A stretch of DNA of 35,911 bases, taken from positions 1 to 35,911 of the forward strand of contig WHTI01000015.1 in assembly GCA_009377815.1 (NCBI GenBank). Reading direction: 5' to 3'. The notes below the pieces were generated by a model. The model worked only from the letters and a program-made list of their open reading frames with translations, was not told the DNA's origin and ran no database searches. A program made the position numbers and the translations under genes. Shown here piece after piece: positions 30,430-34,421 of the stretch (its first letter is position 1; the number at the start of each line of letters is the position of its first letter). Source of the DNA: Actinomycetota bacterium. Lineage in GTDB: Bacteria > Actinomycetota > CADDZG01 > WHSQ01.

Positions 30430-30918
30430 ATGGACAAGCAGAGTGATGCAACCTTCGCCATGTTCTTCCGCACCGAGTATCCGGGCGTCGTCCGGACCGC
30501 CTACCTCGTCCTTCACGACCAGGAGGCGGCGAACGACGTCGCCCAGGATGCCTTCGCCAAAACCCTGAGCCACTGGGGCCGGGTGTCCCGCTACGACCGC
30601 CCGGATGCCTGGGTCCGCAAGGTCGCCATCAACCGGGCGATCAGCGTGGCCAGGCGACAGAAGCTCCACATCGCGGCCAGCTCTCACACCGAACCCACCA
30701 CTGAGCAGAAGCCGGTGGATCTCGATCTCATGCGCGCTATCCGAGCGCTCCCTCCCGCGCAACGAGCCGCGGTCGTCCTCTTCTATTTCGAGGACCGCCC
30801 GGTCGCCCAGGTCGCCGAGATCATGGACTGCTCACCTTCGACCGCCAAGGTGCATCTCCATCGCGCCCGTAAACGACTCAGTGAACAACTAGGAGAGGCG
30901 GTAGCCGATGTCTCTTGA
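30430..30918 (+). CDS. RNA polymerase sigma factor, SigE-family (ECF-like)
   Basis: A 162-residue sigma factor from ATG 30430 (a TTG one codon earlier is possible; there is no ribosome site, so a leaderless start is likely). Region 2 spans about residues 10-75: FFRTEYPGVVRTAYLVLHDQ, EAANDVAQDAFAKTLSHW and PDAWVRKVAINRAIS, the core and -10 binding part. Region 4 spans about 95-155: LPPAQRAAVVLFYFEDRPVA, QVAEIMDCSPSTAKVHLHRA, the helix-turn-helix for the -35. The class is the SigE-like group of actinobacterial ECF factors. It overlaps the following membrane-protein gene by 11 nt, which suggests a functional pair. Confidence 0.93.
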   Translation: MDKQSDATFAMFFRTEYPGVVRTAYLVLHDQEAANDVAQDAFAKTLSHWGRVSRYDRPDAWVRKVAINRAISVARRQKLHIAASSHTEPTTEQKPVDLDLMRAIRALPPAQRAAVVLFYFEDRPVAQVAEIMDCSPSTAKVHLHRARKRLSEQLGEAVADVS

Positions 30919-31936
30919 CGGACGCATCAGGCAAGGGCTCGTTCAGGCCGCGGACTCGGTCGAGCCCAACGTGGAAGGAGACCTCATGAAGGTCACGCAA
31001 CGAGCCCGCACCCGTCGCCGCATCCAGTGGGCCGCAGGTGCCGTCGCGGTCGCGGCGATCGGCGCCTTCCTGTTCCTCGGAGGCACCGACCTCTTCGACG
31101 CCACCGGCGACACGAACCCGATCCCCCCTGCCTCAACCGGCGGGGACGGGGGTCCCACCATCAGCCCAACCCCAGAGGACTCCCCCTCGGAAGCGGTGAG
31201 CCTTACCCTGGCTGACCTCTGGTTCACGAGAGGCGAGGTGCTTTTCCCCGACACCAGCGGCCTGCCGAGCGCCGAGTTGGAAGGAACCAAACTGACGGGT
31301 GAGATGCTCCTGGGTGCGCTCGTCGCGGGAACCGACCATGCTCCACCTGAAGCCGGGCTCTCCACCTCCATCCCTGAGGGAACCAAGGTGCTGGGATTCG
31401 ATATCGCGAACAGGATCGCCACCGTCGATCTCAGCAGTGAGTTCGTCTCCGGTGGGGGCAGCCTTTCGATGAGGATGCGGGTGGCCCAGGTCGTGTTCAC
31501 ACTCACTCAGGAGGAGGAGGAAGTGGAAGGCGTCCTGTTCGAGATCGACGGCGAGCCTGTGGACGCCATCGGCGGGGAGGGTGTTGACGTGAGCGATCCC
31601 CAAACGCGGGCAGACTACGAAGATCTGCTCCCTCCGATCGCCGTCACCAGTCCCAACTGGGGCACGTATTTTGTCAGCGGCGAAACCATCGAGGGCATCG
31701 CTAACGTCTTCGAGGCCACGGTGTCGTGGCGGATCCTCGATGAAAGCGGGGAGGAGATCGCCAATGGCTTCGCAACGGCCACCTGTGGGACCGGCTGCTG
31801 GGGCGACTTCACGACCGAGGTGGAGTTCTCCATCGACCACTCGCAAGAGGGCACGGTCGAGGTGTTCGAATCGTCTGCCGAGAATGGTGAGCCGATGAAT
31901 GTGGTCTCGGTCCCCGTGACCTTGTTCACGGACTAG
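30908..31936 (+). CDS. Membrane-anchored GerMN and Gmad2-domain protein
   Basis: A 342-residue protein with a short cytoplasmic N-terminus rich in Arg (TQRARTRRRIQ), one membrane helix at about residues 40-60 (WAAGAVAVAAIGAFLFLGG), a low-complexity Pro/Thr/Ser linker, then an external GerMN-like domain (residues about 95-215, with VLFEIDGEPVDAIGGEG) and a Gmad2 immunoglobulin-like domain (about 235-340, opening IAVTSPNWGTYFVSGETIEG). It overlaps the sigma factor gene and its cytoplasmic head could hold that factor, although no zinc anti-sigma motif is seen. GerMN/Gmad2 pairs are common in actinobacterial cell-envelope proteins. Function not established. Confidence 0.8.
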   Translation: MSLDGRIRQGLVQAADSVEPNVEGDLMKVTQRARTRRRIQWAAGAVAVAAIGAFLFLGGTDLFDATGDTNPIPPASTGGDGGPTISPTPEDSPSEAVSLTLADLWFTRGEVLFPDTSGLPSAELEGTKLTGEMLLGALVAGTDHAPPEAGLSTSIPEGTKVLGFDIANRIATVDLSSEFVSGGGSLSMRMRVAQVVFTLTQEEEEVEGVLFEIDGEPVDAIGGEGVDVSDPQTRADYEDLLPPIAVTSPNWGTYFVSGETIEGIANVFEATVSWRILDESGEEIANGFATATCGTGCWGDFTTEVEFSIDHSQEGTVEVFESSAENGEPMNVVSVPVTLFTD

Positions 31937-32664: not shown

Positions 32665-32719
32665 GGTTGTCCGATTGATGACAGGTCCACGAGAAAGAGG
32701 CCTGCTACGCTTCGGGTTC

Positions 32720-32740
32720 AGCCGCACATCTTGTGCGGCT
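32720..32740 (+). promoter_or_regulatory. Hairpin I in the speD leader
   Basis: AGCCGCAC (32720-32727) and GTGCGGCT (32733-32740) form a perfect 8-bp stem with an ATCTT loop, 22 nt before the leader reading frame. A TACGCT at 32706-32711 could be the -10 box, which would start the transcript just at this hairpin. No U-tract follows, so it is not an intrinsic terminator. Confidence 0.5.
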
Positions 32741-32749
32741 CGGGATGAA

Positions 32750-32798
32750 GGGAGGCGCTTCGTGACTGTGACCAGAGATCACCTCATCGGCGCCTCCC
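32750..32798 (+). promoter_or_regulatory. Hairpin II in the speD leader, sequestering a ribosome site
   Basis: GGGAGGCGC (32750-32758) pairs perfectly with GCGCCTCCC (32790-32798). The left arm contains the GGAGG ribosome site of the leader reading frame and the right arm lies inside that frame. A smaller GTGA/TCAC pair (32768-32782) can extend the hairpin. Translation and folding would exclude each other, the arrangement expected of a translation-coupled attenuator. Confidence 0.5.
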
Positions 32799-32815
32799 GG
32801 CCTTCTTTCGCCTAG
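32762..32815 (+). CDS. Possible 17-residue leader peptide upstream of speD
   Basis: A short frame from GTG 32762 to TAG 32815 encodes MTVTRDHLIGASRPSFA. GGAGG (32751-32755) lies exactly 6 nt before the GTG, a strong ribosome site, and no other gene covers it. It is 80 nt upstream of speD. Its ribosome site is held in the stem of hairpin II. Leader peptides before polyamine genes are known elsewhere (the MAGDIS peptide of mammalian AdoMet decarboxylase, SpeFL in enterobacteria), but this peptide matches neither. It could also be chance, given its length. Confidence 0.35.
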   Translation: MTVTRDHLIGASRPSFA

Positions 32816-32895: not shown

Positions 32896-33273
32896 TTGCT
32901 CGATACCCCAGCATTACTGGAGTCCCCACGCATGCGCCTCTGGGCTATGGATGCGTGGGTCGCCAACGGGAGCATCCTCACGGACCGCGAACGATTGCGG
33001 ACGATCATGTATGACGCCGCCCGGAACGGCGGGGTCACCGTGCTCGGCGAGGAGTTCTGCGGGTTCGACAACGGTGCGGTCACCGGCGTACTGGTTCTCG
33101 CCCAATCGCATCTCAGCATCCATACCTGGCCCGAGTTCGCGCTGGCGAACGTCGACCTCCTGTCGTACGGCGACGTCCGGGGCGAGGACATGATGCACGC
33201 CATAGGCAGGGAACTCGGCGCGGAGAACGTGAACGTCAGCTGCGTCCTGCGAGGGATCCCATCACAGACATGA
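32896..33273 (+). CDS. speD: SpeD-family pyruvoyl decarboxylase (AdoMet decarboxylase homologue, altered active site)
   Basis: A 125-residue protein from TTG 32896 with AAGGAG upstream. The central segment SHLSIHTWPEFALANVDLLS aligns well with bacterial SpeD: Ser71 is the predicted self-cleavage and pyruvoyl residue, His76 the processing His. Two otherwise conserved residues differ from T. maritima SpeD: the residue before Ser is Gln70 (Glu there), and Tyr91 (in LLSYGD) stands where Cys83 (FTCGE) should be. Cys83 is thought to be the proton donor in decarboxylation. So it may not be a standard AdoMet decarboxylase; SpeD relatives acting on arginine or ornithine have been described. Coupled to bpsA by an ATGA overlap. 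Confidence 0.85.
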   Translation: MLDTPALLESPRMRLWAMDAWVANGSILTDRERLRTIMYDAARNGGVTVLGEEFCGFDNGAVTGVLVLAQSHLSIHTWPEFALANVDLLSYGDVRGEDMMHAIGRELGAENVNVSCVLRGIPSQT

Positions 33274-34421
33274 AGCGAGATGAGATCCTCCGCGAGGTCG
33301 CCACCGCAGTCGCCTTGATCGAGGGCGTGGCCGGCGTGCTCGAGGTCGTTAACGCGATCGCTCGGTTCGAACCCATCGCGGTCCGGAAGATCAGCCGGAC
33401 GGTAGGGCTCCCGGTGCCTATCGTCGCGGCCATCTGCGCCGAACTCCGCAAACGCGCCGTCGTGGCCGTCGAACGGCCGGTTCAGCTCACACCTGAGGGC
33501 CGGGCAGAGTTCGGCTTCGCCGGTCGTGCCCCTGTCACCGATCCGGAGGTTGGTCTCTCGGCCGACCTCGAGGAAGTGACGGCCGAACTGACGAAGGTTG
33601 CGGACGCCGCTCCAAGGGTTCGGCTAGAGATCGATCAGTCCCACTGCACGGTCGAGACGAAGATCCGCAGGGTGTTGCTCCTTCATGAGGCCGGTGCCCT
33701 GTCCGGAAAGAGAGTGCTGTTCCTCGGCGACGACGACCTGATGTCGATCGCGCTCGACCGTGTGGCCCGACGCTATGGTTTCGCGGGCTCGATCCGGGAG
33801 GTGGCGGTCGTCGACATCGACCCCGAGGTGGTGGAGTTCTGCCGCTCGCGGCTACACGATGCGATCGTCCCAGCTTCATTCCACGTGCATGATCTGCGCG
33901 ATCCCGTCCCGGAGGCCCTTGCCGGGCGCTTCGACACCGTGTTCATCGATCCGCCCTACACGCCCGAAGGCGCCGAGCTGTTCCTGTCGCGCGCTGCGTC
34001 CGCCCTCTCGAGAGCGAGCGGCGGCAACGTTTTCCTCTGTTTCGGGATGAAGCCTCCGCCCGACAGCCTCAGAATCCAAAGCGCGATCGCCGAGATGGGG
34101 TTCGTGATCCGCCGGCTGGAACGCAACTTCAACGAGTACGCGGGGGCCGGCGCCCTCGGCGGCGTCAGCAACCTCTATCACCTGACCTCGACCAACATGA
34201 CGGATCCCCTGATCGATGAGCACTACGCCGGCCTCCTCTATACCGGAGACGAGCGCGGTACCCGTCGGTACCGTTGTGTTTCCTGCGGCGCGGTCGAGAC
34301 CGTGGGACGGCAGCAGACTTGGGAAACGATCGGCGACCTCAAGGCGGCGGGATGCCCCCGCTGCAAGGCGAGTGCGTTCCGCCCGATGCCGCGCTCGGGT
34401 GGTCCAGTCCGAGCGCGCTAG
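33270..34421 (+). CDS. bpsA: BpsA-like branched-chain polyamine synthase with C-terminal zinc ribbon
   Basis: A 383-residue DUF43/BpsA protein. The N-terminal winged-helix-like domain (residues about 20-85: LEVVNAIARFEPIAVRK and ISRTVGLPVPIVAAICAELR) is followed by an aminopropyltransferase Rossmann fold: DQSHCTVETKIRR, VLFLGDDDLMSIAL (acidic GDDDL at 153-157), VVDIDPEVVEF and FDTVFIDPPYTPEG. BpsA adds aminopropyl groups to spermidine to give N4-bis(aminopropyl)spermidine, best known in thermophiles. The last 50 residues hold CxxC pairs (RCVSCGAV, GCPRCKAS; Cys336/339 and Cys362/365), a zinc ribbon I do not recall in archaeal BpsA. The ATG is coupled to speD; its stop shares CTAG with the next gene. 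Confidence 0.88.
   Translation: MKRDEILREVATAVALIEGVAGVLEVVNAIARFEPIAVRKISRTVGLPVPIVAAICAELRKRAVVAVERPVQLTPEGRAEFGFAGRAPVTDPEVGLSADLEEVTAELTKVADAAPRVRLEIDQSHCTVETKIRRVLLLHEAGALSGKRVLFLGDDDLMSIALDRVARRYGFAGSIREVAVVDIDPEVVEFCRSRLHDAIVPASFHVHDLRDPVPEALAGRFDTVFIDPPYTPEGAELFLSRAASALSRASGGNVFLCFGMKPPPDSLRIQSAIAEMGFVIRRLERNFNEYAGAGALGGVSNLYHLTSTNMTDPLIDEHYAGLLYTGDERGTRRYRCVSCGAVETVGRQQTWETIGDLKAAGCPRCKASAFRPMPRSGGPVRAR

Follow-up and report, generated by a model that had tools for sequence, protein, structure and literature searches.

A BpsA-like protein with a zinc ribbon and a SpeD homologue with tyrosine at the catalytic cysteine position: a candidate aminopropyl-transfer module in Actinomycetota

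Introduction

Does a gene for a homologue of the branched-polyamine synthase BpsA, placed next to a gene for a relative of the S-adenosylmethionine (SAM) decarboxylase SpeD, mean that an actinobacterium makes branched polyamines? A preliminary description of such a locus, made from the sequence alone, had suggested so. The locus lies near the end of a stretch of 35,911 nucleotides (contig WHTI01000015.1 of assembly GCA_009377815.1, positions 1 to 35,911, forward strand), and this whole stretch is called the window here. The characterised enzyme of T. kodakarensis (Tk-BpsA) provides the points of comparison. Asp159 and Asp160 of its GDDD motif position the aminopropyl group of dcSAM. Activation of the acceptor amine falls to Asp225, Glu259, Tyr290 and Tyr316, and the aminopropyl carrier is a cluster of acidic residues at the C-terminus (PMC12979288). 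For the tail, the residue numbers in this review differ by two from those of the chain, and these residues were therefore identified by pattern.

Results and Discussion

The gene pair and its contig

The reading frame described as a BpsA homologue is real. The protein, called BpsA' here, matches the BpsA_C domain (PF01861) over profile positions 4–187 of 243 only, and a search of solved structures returned BpsA entries only (2qm3, 5xnc and 6j27, 1e-21 to 1e-26). The upstream gene was also correctly described as a SpeD relative. Its product, called SpeD' here, scores above the cut-offs of both PF02675 and TIGR03330 (Table 1), and its search of solved structures returned SpeD entries only. A Shine-Dalgarno-like GAAGGAG precedes the TTG start of SpeD', and the stop of this gene overlaps the start of BpsA' by 4 nt, so that the proposed two-gene operon is credible. 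A later start of SpeD', at ATG 32932, is possible.

The contig is of chromosomal type, and we take its genes, read by eye, to include succinate dehydrogenase-like, purine and citrate-cycle genes. The GC content is even, the housekeeping genes are of uniform composition, and the codon usage of the BpsA' gene is native-like and the most typical in the window. Contamination was rejected on these grounds, and the actinobacterial origin of the locus stands. Codon usage gives no support to a recent transfer from high-GC actinomycetes.

Two strong inverted repeats lie between the upstream gene and SpeD', at 32719–32741 and approximately 32749–32800 (GCCGCACA..TGTGCGGC and GGGAGGCGC..GCGCCTCCC; folding z about -2). 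An Rfam search upstream of SpeD' gave no match for an RNA element. Positions 30430–31936 of the window hold the genes of a sigma-70 family factor and, after it, of a membrane protein whose Germane and Gmad2 domains are of the spore-germination type.

Table 1. Positions of the gene pair and its motifs in the window, and of the clusters in five related genomes
Feature	Position	Strand	Size and basis
SpeD', class 1b SpeD homologue	32896..33273	+	125 aa, TTG start; PF02675 86 bits, TIGR03330 80.5 bits (curated cut-off 75.65)
SpeD' processing motif QSHLSIHTWPE (Ser71 pyruvoyl site, His76)	33103..33135	+	alignment with canonical SpeD
SpeD' Tyr91 at the position of T. maritima SpeD catalytic Cys83	33166..33168	+	structure search, SpeD alignment, SpeD tree
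BpsA', BpsA-like protein	33270..34421	+	383 aa; ATG start overlaps SpeD' stop (ATGA); PF01861 140 bits (cut-off 27), E=8e-41; tree
BpsA' GDDDL motif, putative dcSAM-positioning site	33726..33740	+	joint alignment
BpsA' DPPY motif (canonical BpsA: DPPE)	33948..33959	+	motif comparison, joint alignment
BpsA' FNEY motif with Tyr290	34128..34139	+	joint alignment
BpsA' LLYTGD, remnant of the acidic aminopropyl-carrier tail, one invariant Asp (D327)	34236..34253	+	joint alignment
BpsA' C-terminal zinc ribbon CVSC...CPRC	34269..34385	+	four Cys kept in 6/6 clade members, absent from other clades; strands and helix predicted, moderate to low confidence
Compact cluster: PPTase, SpeD', BpsA'-ribbon-GNAT fusion, FkbH, ACP	L027:7998-12855, L028:7777-12872, L151:6817-12983, L152:6711-12262
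Cluster of the same type, PPTase not seen: SpeD', BpsA'-ribbon-GNAT fusion, FkbH, ACP	L153:8905-13239

Three kinds of BpsA homologue

In 397 genomes of the phylum, BpsA_C was matched 24 times, 13 times above the cut-off. The clear homologues are of three kinds by motif. The canonical kind has GDDDL, DPPE, a CxxC in the linker and an acidic tail. The GDHDL kind, of approximately 550 residues, has DPPY, and its GDDD is altered to GDHD. The ribbon kind has GDDDL, DPPY and a C-terminal CxxC...CxxC. Searches with a profile of the ribbon kind also covered the class of the window (24 genomes) and that of G023 (395 genomes). G023 belongs to a genus judged Streptomyces-like by its genome size, GC content and chaplin genes. 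There are six ribbon members: the window protein, four from the Streptomyces-like genus, and one from a genome of another family (G521). Their occurrence in the sampled genomes is very patchy.

In a maximum-likelihood tree of the catalytic domain, with the ribbon excluded, the ribbon kind falls on one side of a branch supported at 95/89. The enzymes of T. kodakarensis, P. furiosus and T. thermophilus, together with the canonical actinobacterial BpsA, sit on a separate branch (100/99). The window branch is long, and its place inside the ribbon clade is tentative. The described kinship with BpsA holds, and the protein lies outside the characterised clade; the window BpsA' and the characterised enzymes are not orthologues. 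The zinc ribbon that had been noted at the C-terminus (CVSC-x22-CPRC, residues 336–365) is present throughout the six-member clade, in 0/10 canonical homologues and in 0/23 of the GDHDL kind; its absence from the three reference enzymes was read from aligned sequences. The preliminary description had raised the possibility that the tail is universal in the family, and it is not.

Canonical BpsA occurs in small Actinomycetota genomes (L004–L010) next to PvlArgDC, SpeD and/or SpeE. PvlArgDC comes directly after BpsA in two examined loci (L008, L009), SpeD is found in L007, L008 and L010, and SpeE in L005, L008 and L009. These loci are apparently true branched-polyamine operons within Actinomycetota, with the expected pathway from agmatine to branched polyamines. 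The window pair is not an operon of this type.

The GDHDL family, in which Asp159 is replaced by His, is common and spread over several actinobacterial families (L013, L014, L031:8752-10416, L131–L150). It is apparently uncharacterised, and that it works with dcSAM is doubtful. The one BpsA homologue matched in a plasmid collection belongs to this clade, and a search of viral contigs gave no member with the full domain. A BpsA-like protein of Candidatus Blackburnbacteria (L002:3965-4873), encoded near sugar-nucleotide genes, has GDDD and DPPY and no ribbon; its placement in the tree is uncertain.

The active site of BpsA'

A model of BpsA' derived from two sequences (mean pLDDT 60) was used for the overall fold only. 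Its best structural matches are BpsA structures (E 3e-13). The described ribbon is modelled as strand-strand-helix-strand, at moderate to low confidence. The likeness to BpsA (EC 2.5.1.128; 5xnc from T. kodakarensis, 2qm3 from P. furiosus, 6j28 from T. thermophilus) extends over the BpsA_C domain with its Rossmann core and the N-terminal helical, winged-helix-like part. In a joint alignment, GDDD (residues 153–156 in the window protein), Asp225 and Tyr290 are kept in the ribbon clade.

BpsA' also differs from BpsA. DPPY stands in place of DPPE. The Glu259 column holds no acid in the ribbon clade; it is Met in the window protein, with an invariant Lys one column on. The whole segment that carries Tyr316 is deleted, and the CxxC of the linker is gone from the window protein. 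The ELYDDEE tail of Tk-BpsA has become LLYTGDE in the window protein and LYTAD in G521, leaving a single invariant Asp in the clade, and the ribbon follows directly. The retained GDDD makes binding of dcSAM by BpsA' plausible. The known chemistry at N4 of spermidine is not supported, since Glu259, Tyr316 and the greater part of the acidic tail are gone.

The preliminary description had called for a search for speE/spermidine genes. In the window genome, no spermidine synthase was found (no PF01564 match at E<=0.001), and the same search matched in 11 of 14 controls. The genome is a MAG (96.6% complete), and the absence is therefore not fully certain. The other ribbon-clade genomes do have PF01564 matches, at the level of the family.

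Could BpsA' nevertheless be an ordinary branched-chain polyamine synthase, as first proposed, working on imported spermidine? Its family and fold, and the kept GDDD, Asp225 and Tyr290, are consistent with this. We consider it very unlikely, and it carries the least weight of the readings set out here, since the protein lies outside the characterised clade and lacks Glu259, Tyr316 and the bulk of the carrier tail, the genome has no SpeE, and the canonical loci of the phylum carry the full pathway. Nor is there a sign of thermophily; the composition estimate (IVYWREL, approximately 43 °C) is crude and uninformative. The inference from the pair to branched polyamines in this lineage is thus not borne out. 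From its sequence, BpsA' resembles BpsA up to the predicted binding of dcSAM, and it should not be filed as BpsA, because four defining features that we tested are missing: the complete four-residue activating set, the acidic carrier cluster, the grouping with characterised BpsA in the tree and SpeE in the genome.

The SpeD' partner

Aligned with canonical SpeD, SpeD' keeps the self-processing Ser71 and His76 (equivalent to Ser63 and His68) and the HTWPE motif. It differs from the class 1b enzyme (T. maritima, 1tlu) at the column of the catalytic Cys83, which is Tyr in the window protein and the four Streptomyces-like members (5/6) and Cys in G521. The residue before the pyruvoyl Ser is Gln in the window, and Gln or Ala across the clade, in place of Glu. 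The SpeD' sequences form a clade of their own (100/100). The preliminary description had overlooked the lost cysteine, and it had no means of seeing the setting of the relatives among FkbH and carrier-protein genes. The six genomes with a ribbon BpsA' have SpeD' as their only SpeD, and SpeD is absent from six close relatives of the window genome, all of them without BpsA' (6/6).

Nearly all viral SpeDs keep the Cys; the exceptions among 80 loci are one with Ala-Ser-Gly at this place and one that gave no score. Like the window SpeD', a viral SpeD homologue at L073 is without the catalytic Cys (FASGD).

Changes of function are documented for other SpeD homologues. In PMC10407285, Ser63, His68 and Cys83 are expected to be common to SpeD, SpeDA and SpeDC, so that SpeD', with its Tyr, fits neither SpeDA nor SpeDC cleanly. 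The diagnostic residues of SpeDC given there are Gln, Thr, Phe and Tyr, with Cys83 marked separately. The window protein carries Gln ahead of the Ser, Tyr in place of Cys83 and a Phe following HTWPE; these are at best possible counterparts of three of the four. Like SpeDA and SpeDC, the window SpeD' occurs in a genome that has no SpeE. It differs in being paired with a dcSAM-type transferase and not with SpeY, HSS or CASDC, and in having lost the Cys83 position while keeping the Pro of HTWPE.

These substitutions raise the alternative that SpeD' is not a SAM decarboxylase. It might then decarboxylate arginine or ornithine in the manner of SpeDA or SpeDC, act as a decarboxylase on an aminocarboxypropyl product, or be dead; the substrate of BpsA' would be SAM itself, and BpsA' a methyl- or aminocarboxypropyl-transferase. 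DPPY occurs in methyltransferases, which is in keeping with such a role. The changed Cys and Glu positions of SpeD' agree with it as well, and neofunctionalisation of SpeD is documented in PMC10407285. We regard this alternative as quite improbable. Cys83 is marked in that paper as catalytic in SpeD, SpeDA and SpeDC alike, so that losing it is at odds with these groups. The Pro of HTWPE, which a pelagiphage homologue has lost, is kept in SpeD', and GDDD is kept in BpsA', in contrast to GDHD in the GDHDL clade. The pairing of SpeD' with BpsA' is strict.

FkbH and carrier-protein genes in the relatives

In the five other ribbon members, the BpsA' protein continues into a GNAT domain (5/5). The stop of the fusion gene lies inside or almost inside an FkbH-domain gene, which is followed by an ACP gene (5/5). 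The FkbH assignment was tested for L152 (TIGR01686, 194.5 bits against a cut-off of 146.65). SpeD' is no more than about 1.5 kb away in these five genomes, and a PPTase is nearby in the four Streptomyces-like ones. Of 61 genomes of the Streptomyces-like genus sampled with the family model, one (G023) carries the cluster, which is therefore accessory; three more carriers come from other samples.

The gene content makes this compact cluster a candidate for an undescribed natural-product cluster. Where FkbH proteins occur with a standalone ACP, glyceryl-ACP is considered to be their product (PMC7489565). The five relatives share both with FkbH-type clusters such as those for tetronates, and four share the PPTase. 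Unlike those clusters, the compact cluster has no PKS or FabH-like gene and contains SpeD' and the BpsA'-GNAT fusion. Microcin C type aminopropylated peptides take the aminopropyl group from dcSAM (Kulikovsky 2025, as cited in PMC13381572). The likeness would be a natural product with a dcSAM-derived aminopropyl group, if the clusters of the relatives make one; no peptide precursor or Mcc genes were seen here. A search of the open literature gave no paper that joins FkbH with a SAM decarboxylase, and the annotation name of the ribbon BpsA' family was not in use in any paper it returned.

The window carries the core pair only. Its BpsA' has no GNAT fusion, no FkbH or ACP gene lies beside the pair, and no FkbH homologue was found in the genome at E<=0.01 in a search run without a positive control. 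The role of the pathway in the window organism may therefore differ. The GNAT domain was considered as a PanZ-like activator of a SpeD' without Cys and rejected: the window SpeD', with Tyr, has no GNAT, and the SpeD of G521, with Cys, has one.

A further alternative is that BpsA' replaces SpeE as the only polyamine aminopropyltransferase of the genome, converting putrescine or agmatine and dcSAM to spermidine or N1-aminopropylagmatine. A SpeD without SpeE agrees with this, and so do two arginase-family genes of the window genome, which by eye we take to be one arginase-like and one agmatinase-like. No ornithine or arginine decarboxylase of the PF02784 type was found in this genome beyond a single protein that reads, presumably, as diaminopimelate decarboxylase (LysA), so that a source of putrescine is not evident. 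The relatives lie in ACP/FkbH clusters and not in polyamine operons, and the distribution is very patchy for a core polyamine enzyme. This role is unlikely.

A proposed aminopropyl-transfer module

We think it fairly probable, on the retained and lost residues and the strict pairing, that SpeD' and BpsA' form a self-contained module that makes and uses dcSAM for aminopropyl transfer to a changed acceptor. From the observed sequence features, clade, neighbourhoods and co-occurrence, we infer the following activities, acceptor and roles of Tyr91 and the ribbon. SpeD' would cleave itself to form the pyruvoyl cofactor and decarboxylate S-adenosylmethionine, with Tyr91 in place of Cys as the proton donor. 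In PanD, an unrelated pyruvoyl enzyme, the proton donor is Tyr (PMC3314653), and the exchange of Cys for Tyr in SpeD' may thus be chemically reasonable. Alternatively, the enzyme may have been inactivated or redirected when the Cys was lost. BpsA' would bind dcSAM at the GDDD site and move the aminopropyl group to an acceptor other than the N4 amine of spermidine. The zinc ribbon would replace the carrier tail, and its probable task is to present or dock the acceptor or a partner protein. In the five related genomes, the GNAT fusion and the FkbH and carrier-protein genes, with a PPTase in four, make the supply of an aminopropyl amine for a small ACP-dependent natural product the most likely role of the module. 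It is quite possible, although we would not call it probable, that the pair as a whole serves for aminopropyl transfer in an undescribed ACP-dependent (FkbH/GNAT) natural-product pathway of actinobacteria, with a SAM decarboxylase that uses Tyr for Cys and with a stripped-down version in the window genome.

Conclusion

The domain match alone would annotate the ribbon-clade genes as branched-polyamine synthases and falsely imply polyamines of the thermophile type. The clade suggests that the BpsA fold was put to a second use, on a new acceptor, and that the catalytic cysteine of a SpeD can disappear while the protein stays tied to a consumer of dcSAM. If the FkbH-linked clusters make the kind of product that their genes point to, they would be a small, expressible pathway that puts the aminopropyl group of dcSAM into a natural product.
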